Assembly: GCF_000817735.3 (NCBI RefSeq)
Contig: NZ_JTJC03000001.1
Coordinates: 1,544,632 to 1,608,631, forward strand
Origin: Scytonema millei VB511283
Lineage (GTDB): Bacteria; Cyanobacteriota; Cyanobacteriia; Cyanobacteriales; Chroococcidiopsidaceae
DNA: 64,000 bases
Direction: 5' to 3'
This document shows, in pieces, positions 390 to 53,866 of the stretch. The translations under genes were made by a program, and so were the position numbers. Within the stretch, counting starts at the first letter, position 1. Every line of letters begins with the position of its first letter. The notes under the pieces are model-generated. The model ran no database searches and was not told the origin of the DNA. It saw nothing but the letters and a program-made list of their open reading frames with translations.

Positions 390-540
390 AGAGAGGGAGC
401 AGGGAGCAGGGAGTAGGGAGCAGAGGAAGAGAGAGTCGCCAGCTGAGGGAGCAACAACCTTTAACTGTCTTCACGCAGTGTAGCGCAGCGTTTACCGTTA
501 ACCGTCAACTACCAACTACCAACTATCAATTACCACTATA
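390..540. repeat. low-complexity intergenic repeats
   Basis: Contains GGGAGCAGGGAGCAG-type purine runs, a TTCACGCAGTGTAGCGCAGCG element at about 473-493 (seen in reverse complement near 15913-15940), and CCAACTACCAACTACC tracts. No coding potential is visible. Confidence 0.75.
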
Positions 541-20419: not shown

Positions 20420-22192
20420 ATGGCAACTATCGAATCTCAAGATCTTAGTATTGGCAAGCTTTTCAATGATTTTTACGTAATTCCTAGCTACCAACGCGAG
20501 TATGTTTGGGAAGAGAAACACGTTACAGAATTTATTGAAGATATTTATAGAGAGTTTTCCGAGAGTAACTCTACAGGAGATTCTGAGTATTTTATTGGTA
20601 GCATCATTGTCTGTAACCGACACGACGGATTATATGAAGTTATTGACGGACAGCAACGTATCACAACATCTTATTTATTTCTCTGTGCTATCCGAGATTA
20701 TTTACAAAAGGTTAAGCCAGAAGAGTCTATTGAATTATTAAAAAATCAAATTGCATCCACAGATATTGATGAAGAAGGCAATAATGTTTTTCGATATCGC
20801 GTTGCTCTTCAATACGATGATAGCTACGGTGTTTTAGAGACAATTGCTAAACAAGAAGCATTAAATATAGAGACTACGACAACTCACTCAACACAAAACA
20901 TAAAAGATGCTTACTCTGTAATTAGTAAGTGGCTAGTAGAGCAATTGAACGATTCCTCAGTTCAGAGCATCAAAAGATTTTACGCTTATTTTAATAAAAA
21001 TGTCATCTTAGTACGTGTCAAAACAGTAAGTGTAGCAGATGCTTTGAGAGTTTTTGCAACTATTAATGGTCGCGGAGTTAATTTAGGGGCTATAGATCTG
21101 CTGAAAAACTTAATATTTATGAAAACTAATAAGAAAGATTACGACCGTCTCAAGAGAAAGTGGCAAGAAATGGTCGATATTCTTTTTAAAGCTAAAGAAA
21201 ATCATATGAGATTTCTTCGTTATTTTATCTTAGCGCGATATGATGATAGGGAATCTTTAAAAGAAAATGGGATTTATAACTAGTTTTTAAATACAAATAA
21301 CAAAAGATTTTACGAAAATAGACCAATCGAGTTTGTTGAAGAAGTTCTTGAATCTGCAAAAAATTACGTTAGATTTCTAGAAGGTAAAAATGTAGAAGGA
21401 AAAAGAAATCGTTATCTAGAAAATATTCGTCAAATTAGTAGTTCTGTGAGAATGCCTTTAATGATACTTTTAGCAGGACAATATTTAGCCACAGACCAGT
21501 TTACAGAACTATGTCGTCAGGTTGAGAATATCTTTTTTGCTTACATGATTACTCGCGAACCTACTAGTAGTTTTGAACGGCGCTTTATTCAATGGTGTTC
21601 GGAATTACGTCAAGTGACAAGCCAAGAAAAATTAGAAAAATTTATTACCACCTATCTAAAAGTAGAAAAACATAAGATATCTGAGCGATTTGAAATAGCG
21701 TTTGCTAATTTAGAAGAGTCTTCTGTACCTAAATCGCAGTTGAAATATATTTTAGCTAAACTAACACAGTACATAGATGAATCTGCATGGGGAACAACCG
21801 ATCCTATTAGCAACATAAAAAATTATATTGATAAAATAGATATCGAACATATTTTACCTCAAAAACCAACTCTGCAAATCATCTCTACTTTCGATGCGCC
21901 TATAGAGATCGATATACAGATTAAGCGATTAGGTAATTTAGTATTAGTTGAAAAAACAATTAATTCTTCATTGAGCAACAAGCCATTCGATGAAAAAAAG
22001 AAAGCCTACAAACAGTCAAAATTTTTGCTGACAAAATCATTAGTAGAGCAAGTTACTGTTGGAACTAATACAGCAGTCGATCGCGCGGTACAAGATTTAG
22101 AAACATTTGATGTATGGACATCTGAATCTATCAAGAAACGCCAAAAAATGCTAACGCTTTTAGCTAAAAAGGTATGGGACATACCAGTTTAA
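20420..22192 (+). pseudogene. DUF262/DUF1524 (GmrSD-like) gene interrupted by one amber codon
   Basis: A single 591-codon frame is broken only by TAG at 21281-21283 (codon 288). The N-terminal DUF262 domain has IPSYQREYVW (residues 21-30) and EVIDGQQRITT (about 73-83), the ParB-like nucleotide motif. The C-terminal DUF1524 HNH-like domain has EHILP at 476-480 and LGNLVLVEKTINSSLSNKPF. Coding character continues unbroken across the stop (NGIYN stop FLNTNNKRFYEN). GmrSD-type proteins restrict modified phage DNA; standalone DUF262 proteins are common in defence islands. One base change (for example TGG to TAG) would explain the break. Ribosomal read-through or two separate polypeptides cannot be excluded. 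Confidence 0.82.
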
Positions 22193-22454: not shown

Positions 22455-25157
22455 ATGAAAGTTCCTTCTACTCCCACTGCTGCTGAATCTCAAGCACCCA
22501 TACAACCTTGTACTGACTGTCGGCAGATAGACAAAAACAAGCTATCGCCAATGTATAAGCATTATGTAGAAGTAAAAGAGAAGCATCCCCATTCTTTATT
22601 ACTGTATCGGTGTGGAGATTTTTTTGAAACATTCTTTCAGGATGCAGTCATAGTCTCGCGGGAGTTGGAACTCGTTCTCACCAGCAAACACGGTGGCGAA
22701 ATCGGCAGAGTGGCAATGACAGGTGTACCGCATCACGCTTGGGAACGATACACAACACAGTTGATCGAAAAAGGCTATGCTGTCGTTATCTGCGATCAAG
22801 TTGAAGACGCAGCGGTTGCACAAGGGTTAGTCAAGCGTGAAGTGACGCGCATCCTGACTCCAGGGACTCTGTTGCAAGATGGGATGCTGAAAGCTAGCCG
22901 TAATAATTATCTCGCAGCAGTAGCGATCGCCAAAAATCATTGGGGTTTAGCTTATGCAGATATCTCGACAGGAGAATTTTTAGCAACGCAAGGTAGCAAT
23001 TTAGAACAATTAACCCAAGAAATACTGCGACTGCAACCATCTGAAGTTCTCGTTCCTACCAAAGCGCCAGATGTAGGAACATTATTTCGTCCTGGGGAAA
23101 CATCAGAACACATTCCCGAATGCTTACCACCATCATTTTGTTACTGTTTGCGATCGCAATCTAGTTTTAACACGAGCGAAGCTAGACAAAAGTTAATTCA
23201 AAAGTTTAAAGTGCGATCGCTTGAAGGTTTTGGCTGTGAAGATTTGCCCCTAGCCGTGAGTGCAGCGGGTGGATTATTAGAATATATCGAAGATACGCAA
23301 AAAGAAAGTGACGTTCCCCTACAACAACTACGCACTTATGCAATTACCGACTACTTAATTCTCGATCATCAAACTCGTCGCAACTTGGAAATTACCCAAA
23401 CCGTGAGAGATGGAACTTTTATCGGTTCACTATTATGGGCTTTGGATAAAACAACTACGGCGATGGGTAGTCGTGCTTTAAAACGATGGTTTTTGCAACC
23501 ACTATTAGATATTAAAGGCATTCGAGCGCGGCAAGATACAATTCAAGAACTAGTAGAAAATAGTTCCTTGCGGCACGACTTGCGGCAGCTTTTACGACAA
23601 ATTTATGACTTAGAAAGACTTAGTGGTAGGGCTGGTTCGGGAACGGCAAATGCCAGAGACTTAGTAGCATTAGCAGAGTCAATGTTGCGTTTACCAGAAT
23701 TAGCCAGGTTAGTCACAGAAACGCGATCGCCCTATCTTCGTACTTTACAAAAATTCCCTTCAGAATTGGAACAACTAGGGCATAAACTGCGCGCGCAGTT
23801 AGTTGAATCTCCCCCTATCCACCTCACAGAAGGAAATTTAATTCGTCCTGGGATCAGTTCCCAACTTGACGAAAGGCGACGATTATTAGAAGAAGATTTG
23901 CAGTGGGTGGCTAACTTTGAAATTGATGAAAAAGCTAGAACGGGAATTCCGACATTAAAAGTCGGTCACAACGACACCTTTGGATACTATATCAGCATTT
24001 CTCGTGCCAAAGCCGACCAAGTTCCCGCTAACTACATTCGCAAGCAAACTCTAAAAAACGAAGAACGCTACTACACGCCAGAATTAAAAGAAAGAGAAGC
24101 GCGTATACTTACGGCTGAAAAAGATTTGTACCAGCTAGAGTACGATATTTTTACCGAACTGCGGACAGAAGTAGGAGAACAAGCCGACGCAATTCGTAAC
24201 GTCTCCCGTGCCATAGCAGCAGCCGATGTCTTGTGTGGCTTTGCCGAAGTTGCAGTCTATCAAGGTTATTGCCGTCCAGAAATCGTCTCAGGACGAGAGA
24301 TTCATATTATAGACGGGCGACATCCAGTTGTCGAAAAATCTATACCCGCAGGATTTTTCGTACCTAATTCAACTGAAATAGGGAGCAGGGAGCAGGGAGC
24401 AGAGAGCAGAGATAAGAGAGCTGAGGGAGCTGAGGGAACTGAGGGAGAAAGAGCAACTGTCAACCGTCAACCGTCAACTGTCAACCAACAACTACCAACT
24501 ACCAACTACCAACTACCAACTACCAACTACCAACTACCAGATTTAATCATCCTAACTGGTCCCAACGCTAGTGGTAAAAGCTGCTACCTGCGTCAAGTTG
24601 GTTTGATTCAATTAATGGCACAAGTAGGGAGTTTTGTGCCTGCTAAATCGGCAAAATTGGGCGTATGCGATCGCATTTTCACCCGCGTCGGTGCAGTAGA
24701 CGACTTAGCAACTGGGCAATCTACTTTTATGGTAGAAATGAACGAGACAGCAAATATTCTCAACCACGCTTCACCAAGATCTTTAGTATTATTAGACGAA
24801 ATTGGTAGAGGTACGGCAACATTTGACGGACTATCAATTGCTTGGGCAGTAGCAGAGTATTTAGCAACAGAAATTCGCGCTCGTACAATTTTTGCGACTC
24901 ACTACCACGAATTGAACGAACTCGCTTCAATTTTATCCAACGTAGCTAACTACCAAGTCACAGTCAAAGAATTACCCGATCGCATCATATTCTTACACCA
25001 AGTTCAACCAGGCGGCGCAGACAAATCATACGGAATTGAAGCCGGAAGACTAGCAGGTTTACCCCCCGTCGTCATTCAACGAGCAAAACAAGTCATGACG
25101 CAAATCGAACAACACAGTAAAATTGCGATCGGTTTGCGCAAAAGTACACAGTCATAG
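22455..25157 (+). CDS. mutS: DNA mismatch repair protein MutS
   Basis: A 900-aa MutS1. The mismatch-reading FFE motif (CGDFFETFF) lies near residues 54-62, with the connector, lever and clamp domains following. In the ATPase domain, Walker A GPNASGKS is at residues 702-709, followed by [24 protein letters not shown] (Walker B) and [10 protein letters not shown]. It binds mispaired bases and starts repair with MutL. Residues of about 642-695, immediately before Walker A, are encoded by intergenic-type repeats ([27 protein letters not shown]). Bacterial MutS is usually shorter by about this amount. The reading frame is intact; whether the insertion affects activity is unknown. Confidence 0.95.
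24376..24540. repeat. in-frame repeat insertion inside mutS
   Basis: GGGAGCAGGGAGCAGGGAGC, GAGCTGAGGGAGCTGAGGG, CAACCGTCAACCGTCAAC and then five CAACTAC(C) units: exactly the order and words seen in intergenic tracts (for example 400-540 and 28750-28930). About 165 bp (55 codons). Confidence 0.88.
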
Positions 25158-25302
25158 GGGCGGGTTCACCAACAAACCTTGCTACGAACAGATATTCTAC
25201 GTAAACCCGCCCGTACAGACGCGGTTTACAAGAGGATAGTGTGGTATGGGAGAAAAAGCAGGTAGGGGCGCACAGCCGTGCGCCCTCTTAAAATGAGAGA
25301 AT

Positions 25303-28296: not shown

Positions 28297-28801
28297 ACAG
28301 ATGCGATCGCCGTCCACTGGTGTGGTTAAAACGCCTAAAGCGTTTGTTTCCGCTTTGGGGCTAGATATCGGTCGCAAGCGGATTGGAGTAGCTGGTTGCG
28401 ACGGTACGGGTCTGATTGCGACAGGTCTGATGACGATCGAGCGTAAATCTTTTGCTGAGGACGTAGCCCAATTACAGTCCCTCGTCCAATTGCGCCGCGT
28501 GCAAACAATAGTAGCCGGACTACCGTACTCTATGGACGGTAGTTTGGGTTTTCAAGCGCGACAAGTCCAAAAAGTAGCGAAAAGAATTACCAAAGCGCTC
28601 GACCTACCCTTAGTATTTGTAGACGAGCGACTAACATCTTTTCAAGCGGAACAATTCATGCACGCCGAAAATATCTCCCCCTCGCGACACAAAGCTCTGA
28701 TCGATCGCAAAGCAGCTGCCATAATTCTGCAACAATGGTTAGATACAAGAAGAAGGGAGCAGGGAGCAGGGAGCGCACGAGCAGTTATCAGTGACCAGTA
28801 A
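28289..28801 (+). CDS. ruvX: Holliday-junction resolvase-like protein RuvX/YqgF
   Basis: An RNase H-fold nuclease: LGLDIGRKRIGVAGCD (first catalytic Asp), TIVAGLPYSMDGS, VFVDERLTSFQAEQ and the final DRKAAAIILQQWL (third acidic residue). The family processes 16S pre-rRNA ends and branched DNA. The start is taken at GTG 28289, which overlaps the upstream stop; ATG 28301 is an alternative. A much longer frame reaching back to 28040 runs out of phase through the GNAT gene and is rejected. The C-terminal residues from about REQGAGSARAVISDQ are repeat-encoded. Confidence 0.9.
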   Translation: MTEQMRSPSTGVVKTPKAFVSALGLDIGRKRIGVAGCDGTGLIATGLMTIERKSFAEDVAQLQSLVQLRRVQTIVAGLPYSMDGSLGFQARQVQKVAKRITKALDLPLVFVDERLTSFQAEQFMHAENISPSRHKALIDRKAAAIILQQWLDTRRREQGAGSARAVISDQ

Positions 28802-28960
28802 CCAGTTATCAGTGAAGACAGTAGTTATGACTAACCACTCACTACACCCCACACTTCCCGCACCCCACACCCCACACCCTGACAACTGTTAACTGTCAAC
28901 TGTCAACTACCAACTACCAACTACCCATTACCAACAACCAACAACTAACAACTGATGACT
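28755..28960. repeat. repeat tract providing the 3' end of ruvX
   Basis: GGGAGCAGGGAGCAGGGAGC, CAGTTATCAGTGACCAG, CACCCCACACCC, GTCAACTGTCAAC and CAACTACCAACTACC words. The first about 45 bp are translated as the tail of RuvX. Confidence 0.85.
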
Positions 28961-42249: not shown

Positions 42250-42465
42250 TGCGGGAGTCGGGAGTCGGAAGTCAGGAGTCGGGGAGAAGAGGACAAAGGA
42301 GACAAGGGAGAGCTGAGGGAGTAGGAGAGCAGGGGAGCTGAGGAGCAGAGAAGTAGAGGAGACTTCACCAACTACCAACTACCAACTACCGCACTCCACA
42401 CCCCACACCCCATTCTTCACTGATAACTGACAACTGATAACTGACAACTGACATTAACTCCTAAG
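42250..42465. repeat. repeat tract between the two psaK genes
   Basis: GGGAGTCGGGAGTCGGAAG, GAGAGCTGAGGGAGTAGGAG, CAACTACCAACTACC, CACCCCACACCCC and GATAACTGACAACTG words, about 215 bp. Confidence 0.85.
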
Positions 42466-53239: not shown

Positions 53240-53596
53240 ATGAAAATACAGTCATCGGTGTTAGTACACCTCGGCTATGGCAAGTACGTCCGTTCCGACA
53301 AGGTGACATCGATTGTACCTATCGAGGAAGATCGGGGACCAGGACGACGGACATACATCCACCTTGAAGGGCAAGTCGATCCGGTTGTGGCTTCGCGTGC
53401 AGAAGACTCAATTGTCAGGGATTTAGTTCAAGAGCCACGCGACATTACCCAGTCTCGCCAGCAACAAGAGATATTACAAGATTTACTCATCGATCTGCAA
53501 AATATCAATGCGACTATTCGCCGGATTGTCCGCGATGAAGGTGAGTTAGATCTCGATCGCCTAGAACGACGGATTAAGGGAGCGATCGAAGAATAG
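53240..53596 (+). CDS. RemA/DUF370-like small regulatory protein with C-terminal extension
   Basis: A 118-aa protein. VLVHLGYGKYVRSDKVTSIV matches the start of the DUF370 (extracellular matrix regulator RemA/RemB) fold, and GRRTYIHLEGQVDPVVASRA continues it. Residues of about 65-118 form a charged helical tail (ILQDLLIDLQNINATIRRIV). Bacillus RemA is a DNA-binding matrix regulator; the role here is inferred. The stop codon TAG (53594-53596) overlaps the first base pairs of a 68-bp repeat array. Confidence 0.68.
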   Translation: MKIQSSVLVHLGYGKYVRSDKVTSIVPIEEDRGPGRRTYIHLEGQVDPVVASRAEDSIVRDLVQEPRDITQSRQQQEILQDLLIDLQNINATIRRIVRDEGELDLDRLERRIKGAIEE

Positions 53597-53866
53597 ATCT
53601 TTCCTTGTAATTCCATGTGCAACTTATCTATAGCCCCCTTTTTAAGGGGGTTGGGGGATCGTAGATCTTTCCTTGTAATTCCATGTGTGACTTATCTATA
53701 GCCCCCTTTTTAAGGGGGTTGGGGGATCGTAGATCTTTCCTTGTAATTCCATGTGCAACTTATCTATAGCCCCCTTTTTAAGGGGGTTGGGGGACCGTAG
53801 ATCTTTCCTTGTAATTCCATGTGCGACTTATCTATAGCCCCCTTTTTAAGGGGGTTGGGGGATCGC
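53595..53866. repeat. four tandem copies of a 68-bp repeat
   Basis: Units start at 53595, 53663, 53731 and 53799 (exact 68-bp period). Each has AGATCTTTCCTTGTAATTCC, ACTTATCTATAGCC and the palindrome CCCCCTTTTTAAGGGGG followed by TTGGGGGATCG. Variation is confined to two or three positions (GTGC-AA, GTGT-GA, GTGC-GA). An inverted, diverged partial copy (CCCCTTTCTAAAGGGG) follows at about 53906-53922. The 394-bp gap holds no gene. Confidence 0.93.

Follow-up and report, generated by a model that had tools for sequence, protein, structure and literature searches.

The mutS gene of Scytonema millei VB511283 raises the question of how repeat DNA of the type that fills gaps between genes came to be read as protein next to the Walker A motif of a mismatch-repair ATPase, and what it does there. 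The gene lies in a stretch of 64,000 nucleotides (the window) from a genome of 5.97 Mb and encodes a complete MutS1 of 900 residues, which contains all five Pfam domains from MutS_I to MutS_V, the Walker A motif and the MutS fold. The modelled protein is well formed (mean pLDDT 86.9, pTM 0.84), with E. coli MutS as its top Foldseek match. The repeat segment is placed between MutS_III, whose Pfam match runs to residue 597, and MutS_V, which starts at 698, in agreement with the initial annotation, which had put it between the lever/clamp region and Walker A. In the alignment with E. coli MutS (residue numbers of 7ai5), the matched blocks leave a gap between query residues 635 (E. coli 597) and 697 (E. 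coli 609), the last and first matched positions on either side. N638 is invariant and F635 nearly invariant in a 55-row MutS alignment. In the model, residues 647–690 have a pLDDT below 50 and are flanked by strands 638–642 and 697–701. The insertion site is the turn joining the FVPN strand and the Walker A β-strand, and it probably tolerates length change. As modelled, the loop would most naturally be a disordered, exposed linker.

The DNA for residues 642–695 is a polar composite of GGGAGCA, GAGCTGAGG, GTCAACC and CCAACTA words, heptamers and nonamers being arranged in four blocks (Table 1). The lag-7 periodicity of the loop is significant (p = 0.002), none of about 400 random MutS windows of equal length scoring as high. 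The reading frame is open throughout, and the loop length is divisible by three in all three congeners, the source genome included. Two earlier claims are borne out here: that intergenic-type words encode the segment in their usual order, as seen in the TRF blocks and the arm order described below, and that the frame stays open. RNA folding of the window insert is no better than that of shuffled sequences (z +1.09 and +2.23) and lacks a hairpin signal, which rules out a palindromic element for this insert. The comparison with Rickettsia palindromic elements made in the initial annotation holds for behaviour, as in-frame copies are found in unrelated genes, and fails for anatomy, as the palindrome or strong hairpin is missing.

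Table 1 Features of the mutS locus and sibling repeat cassettes in the window.
Feature	Position	Strand	Basis or remark
mutS (MutS1)	22455..25157	+	Pfam MutS_I–MutS_V; top fold match E. coli MutS, TM 0.82/0.93
FVPN, residues 635–638, conserved strand start immediately 5' of the loop	24357..24368	+	55-row alignment
Repeat-encoded loop, residues 642–695	24378..24539	+	Tandem repeats; pLDDT <50 at 647–690
Purine arm, GGGAGCA/GAGCAGA heptamers	24380..24425	+	TRF rows 24380–24409 (AGGGAGC ×4.3) and 24383–24425
GAGCTGAGG nonamers, ×3.3	24418..24447	+	TRF
GTCAACC heptamers, ×4.7	24454..24486	+	TRF (unit CAACCGT)
CCAACTA heptamers, ×7.3, perfect	24489..24539	+	TRF (unit CAACTAC, 100% match)
Walker A GPNASGKS, residues 702–709	24558..24581	+	Invariant columns, 55-row alignment
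Sibling cassette, same arm order, outside any predicted ORF ≥100 aa, one sense frame open	394..525	+	400394–400525 of the 464-kb stretch; repeat families D8 and D4
Sibling cassette, same arm order, stops in all frames	28754..28925	+	Frame check
Sibling cassette, same arm order, stops in all frames	42252..42412	+	Frame check

The same arrays are dispersed through the source genome. Three consecutive CCAACTA units have 190 match positions (98 + 92) and the reversed word has 8 (4 + 4), counted as positions that overlap inside one array. In 464 kb of this genome there are 11 cases of a purine-arm array with a CAAC- or ACACCCC-arm array in the next 250 nt of the same strand and 0 of the opposite order; for opposite-strand neighbours the figure is 1 of 38. 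Together with the lag-7 periodicity, this multiplicity and arm order indicate that the MutS insert is one copy of the genome's polar composite. With genes called by the longest-ORF rule, 35 of the 177 heptamer arrays in the 464 kb lie inside ORFs of at least 100 aa (143 under random placement) and 25 inside ORFs of at least 250 aa; 100 are fully outside and the rest cross an ORF end. The 166 array clusters, placed by the same rule, divide into 36 inside ORFs, some of them ordinary low-complexity coding repeats, 45 at edges and 85 outside. Genes are depleted of heptamer arrays, yet far from array-free; the shortage could also stem from insertion bias. Tandem heptanucleotide arrays with many dispersed copies, mostly outside genes, are the features of the cyanobacterial STRR type, to which we take the MutS insert to belong. 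Under the same gene calls, the sense strand is open in 3 of the 8 cassette copies outside ORFs and closed in 5, with no clear excess over shuffles; an inherently coding-compatible cassette is unsupported.

MutS is not the only enzyme of this genome that contains the composite, contrary to the impression that the insert is special to MutS. Of 19 stretches chosen for long open frames that match the peptide of the MutS loop, 17 have the array within an ORF, a proportion that is not a rate because of that choice. Many of the genic copies are a near-complete composite, in which a 19-residue part is followed by TVNRQPST and a 10-residue part. A 20-residue peptide recurs among them and the unit numbers differ. 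Ten proteins were scanned with Pfam, namely eight from the 17 in-ORF stretches together with PPC and QueA. The array falls inside one continuous match in five of them (PEP carboxylase, QueA, CobN, CbiA and NurA) and between or before domains in three (CheA, ThiO-ThiG and an epimerase). In the other two, an RND transporter and a histidine kinase (HATPase), it lies beside a split match and is presumably inside the domain.

Three of these proteins were compared between species. The QueA loop measures 41–94 residues between fixed anchors at 16 usable loci of 19 (18 of 24 loci plus the source gene, with one misanchored and two unmatched). The PPC stretch before GYSDS is variable among the 21 loci listed, and repeat-like text is present in G000, G009, G008, G170 and G099; the identical PPC insert in G000 and G009 means that turnover is not always fast. 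CobN, aligned from the 12 of 17 frames longer than 1180 aa, has six variable sites with a longest row of 21–51 residues each (12 rows), the repeat filling of the sites being judged by eye. In these alignments, the loops of QueA, PPC and CobN turn over as the MutS loop does. The CobN/magnesium-chelatase-like protein L210 has repeat-like text at several variable sites in several of the 12 species.

Inserts of 132 and 141 nt occupy the same point of MutS in the two congeners, G008 and G009, respectively, as compared with 165 nt in the window, ruling out the strain-specific insertion that had been envisaged earlier. The G008 loop shares its 12-residue start and TTNYQLP near the end with that of the window, and the nonamers between them differ; the purine arm in the window is 21 nt (three heptamers) longer, an in-frame step. 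The G009 loop contains a palindromic GGGGCGGGTTT/AAACCCGCCC piece plus different nonamers. The MutS flanks are 92–96% identical in DNA among the congeners with dN/dS of 0.007–0.075, which points to strong purifying selection outside the loop and indicates loop turnover within a preserved MutS protein. Other genera of the same family include some with short loops and others with loops built from other words. The C-terminus of G008 MutS (L010), ..IGLRESGSRE, continues into GGGAGTAGGGAGTAGGG repeat DNA, so that this end has acquired heptamers too.

Across the order, the loop, counted from the phenylalanine in FVPN to the glycine in GPN, ranges from 21 to 166 aa in 112 of 113 loci (L098 yielded no loop). 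The non-cyanobacterial loop measures 18–19 aa (33 of 38 rows with the anchored motif) and that of Prochlorococcus 18 aa (anchored rows). The segment is thus not ordinary conserved MutS sequence, and its absence from the non-cyanobacterial rows, like its very low confidence in the model, fits the tolerated loop proposed by the initial annotation. Relatives share the insertion site and not most of the residues, so that a single insert with conserved residues in all of them, which would have counted against the initial annotation, is not what is seen; among the 112 loops, no residues are common to all between the LG and PDL ends. The loop is the most variable site of MutS in 53 near-full-length cyanobacterial proteins, with a spread of 51 aa and 23 lengths; the corresponding values in the same set are 16 aa and 4 lengths for the next internal site, and 13 aa and 9 lengths for the N-terminal tail. 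Lag-7 periodicity reaches p ≤ 0.01 in 30 of the 112 loops. Repeats are recognisable in 48 loops and none were recognised in 64, a post hoc division because the repeat-class words were written after the loops had been inspected. The classes overlap (heptamers 22, the ACCACAGAGGCACAGAGG kind 22, CCCCCCTTAAAAAGGGGGG 3, GCGAAGCG-type palindromes 7); class-A member L032 is doubtful, and related rows among the 112 are not independent. On a flank-only tree, parsimony requires at least 18 changes between the repeat and no-repeat states, with gains indistinguishable from losses. Among 19 loops that were folded, L045, L081 and L105–L107 far surpass shuffled sequences (z −3.6 to −8.4), which the window insert does not.

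Of the five loop words tested, four have multiple copies in the genomes with that word in the loop. Match positions of three CCAACTA units number 190, 33 and 115 in the three congeners and 0 in six other genomes. CTAACCTTCAACCT has 277, 119 and 143 match positions in the three genomes whose loops are longest (0 in six others), and GGCCAAAAGGCCACGCTACGCG has 119, 123 and 88 in those three (0 in five others). The fourth, the ACCACAGAGG word, has 2–23 match positions (as AACCACAGAGGCACAGAG) in 6 of 9 genomes; the other three multicopy words are absent from the further genomes checked (0/6, 0/6 and 0/5). The MutS loop of G017 (L013) is a GGAGACA array, and all five matches to GGAGACA ×3 in that genome (84% complete) fall in the loop, so that this loop may have grown in place. 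GGAGACA ×3 also occurs in 5 of 8 other genomes (1–6 matches each), and the word is therefore not lineage-specific.

Very probably, dispersed short tandem repeats enter genes and purifying selection keeps the stop-free, in-frame copies in tolerant loops. A dispersed composite of the STRR type would have entered mutS at the length-tolerant turn between FVPN and Walker A. Arrays may spread by copying between existing arrays, through ectopic recombination, gene conversion or template switching, and slippage would change their length. Most gene-borne copies would be lost; the survivors would be free of stops, a multiple of three in length, located in a flexible loop and structurally silent. On this view the loop peptide would be passive and disordered, a linker with a sequence turnover close to that of intergenic DNA.

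Other readings account for part of the data. An RPE- or MITE-like mobile element that had a target preference of its own and carried an element-level open frame would explain the fixed arm order (11:0) and the many in-frame genic copies; it is nevertheless unlikely, because shuffles of the insert fold at least as well as it does, the non-genic copies are open on the sense strand in no clear excess over shuffles, and copies vary in units and length. The loop could instead have a selected function, for example as a flexible tether or by docking MutL, the clamp or some other partner, with the repeats as raw material. Its lengthening at one place in many lineages and its peptides, which appear hydrophilic by eye, speak for this idea, yet it is highly improbable for a loop that keeps no common residue between its LG and PDL ends, spans 21–166 aa and differs in content between congeners with flanks 92–96% identical in DNA. 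Nearness to Walker A is what recommends a hypomutator or broken allele, with damage to this strain's MutS by the insert. This is hardly credible with all Pfam domains and Walker A intact and inserts in both congeners too; the flank dN/dS of 0.007–0.075 rules out a broken gene and leaves the standing hypomutator or mutator allele suggested earlier unsupported.

A reversible mutator switch would place the frame under the control of the CCAACTA tract, whose slippage by units not divisible by three would shift the frame before Walker A and turn MutS off and on. There is a precedent in the copy-number change of a 6-bp repeat in mutL, described in PMC2955026. The mutS tract has 7.3 perfect CAACTAC copies, and by reading-frame computation only, with one genome per species, a change of ±7 or ±14 nt abolishes the frame with a stop 1 or 9 codons past the tract, whereas ±21 nt keeps it. 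A change of one or two heptamers would thus leave the ATPase unmade, and by analogy with mutL a reversible switch is possible; the 21-nt difference between the purine arms of G000 and G008 is in frame. Against the switch, all three congeners are in frame, 64 of the 112 loops have no recognisable repeat, and like arrays occur in CobN, PPC and QueA, enzymes without mutator benefit, which favours tolerance over selection. On balance it is distinctly unlikely. MutS normally restrains recombination between diverged copies. It is very unlikely that the tract acts as a genome-wide switch of recombination and mutation, driving repeat turnover in enzyme loops proteome-wide until it slips back; if true, one slipped heptamer would turn mismatch repair off and release recombination among diverged repeat copies. 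Entry of dispersed repeats, followed by purifying selection for tolerated copies, is the reading retained here.

Several known systems resemble parts of this picture. STRR heptamer repeats reportedly occur inside rnpB of heterocystous cyanobacteria, a case that is alike in having dispersed 7-nt tandem repeats also within an essential gene. It differs in that mutS is a protein gene, its insert must stay in frame and it adjoins an ATPase motif. Repeats of the heptamer TAACTGA that lie within ORFs of Beggiatoaceae and cyanobacteria (PMC4679880) are likewise heptamer arrays read as protein and free of stops on one strand only. That paper places most of them at the ends of proteins or in hypothetical ones, whereas arrays of the MutS type are internal, in conserved enzyme domains, with one loop used order-wide. 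Rickettsia palindromic elements (PMC10969869) are also dispersed repeats of about 150 bp read in frame in unrelated metabolic genes, whereas the MutS insert is non-palindromic, consists of tandem units and changes its vocabulary by lineage. The mutL 6-bp switch (PMC2955026) is alike as a tandem repeat within a mismatch-repair gene; the mutS unit is 7 nt, so that a single-unit change shifts the frame, and the mutS switch is a prediction from sequence. GGGNATC-type heptamers of Xanthomonas and Nostoc (PMC4692102) share the under-representation of G-rich heptamers in coding DNA, but that work is mainly on intergenic quadruplexes.

Dispersed repeats read in frame are already known from Rickettsia, as are ORF-borne heptamer arrays, located for the most part at the ends of proteins, from Beggiatoaceae and cyanobacteria. 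The distribution of mutS across cyanobacteria has been described in PMC5101192, the part consulted leaving the loop unmentioned. No title among the literature matches listed concerns repeats in the MutS loop, which does not imply absence from print; nor do those matches include one MutS loop being used again and again, or a genome that reads a polar heptamer composite in frame within many conserved enzyme domains. Our analysis points to noncoding repeat DNA becoming protein sequence repeatedly, in the same loops of core enzymes, within one bacterial order. This would amount to a natural, many-times-replicated experiment on where folds tolerate insertions and how disordered sequence arises. In addition, the perfect 7-nt tract just 5' of Walker A is a testable weak point in mismatch repair, with a unit size outside the repeat survey of mutL and mutS, which covered units of 1–6 nt only (PMC2955026).

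The window also contains other repeats. Four tandem 68-bp units at 53594–53865 each include a CCCCCTTTTTAAGGGGG palindrome, and the dispersed palindrome family D13, GGGGCGCAC..GTGCGCCC, is found at 25247, 26750, 45389, 45434, 48874, 51229 and 51687. Upstream of mutS, a gene on the + strand (20420–22192), which is presumably DUF262/GmrSD-like, is split by a single TAG at 21281–21283 into two listed ORFs in one frame, and is either nonsense-broken or read through.
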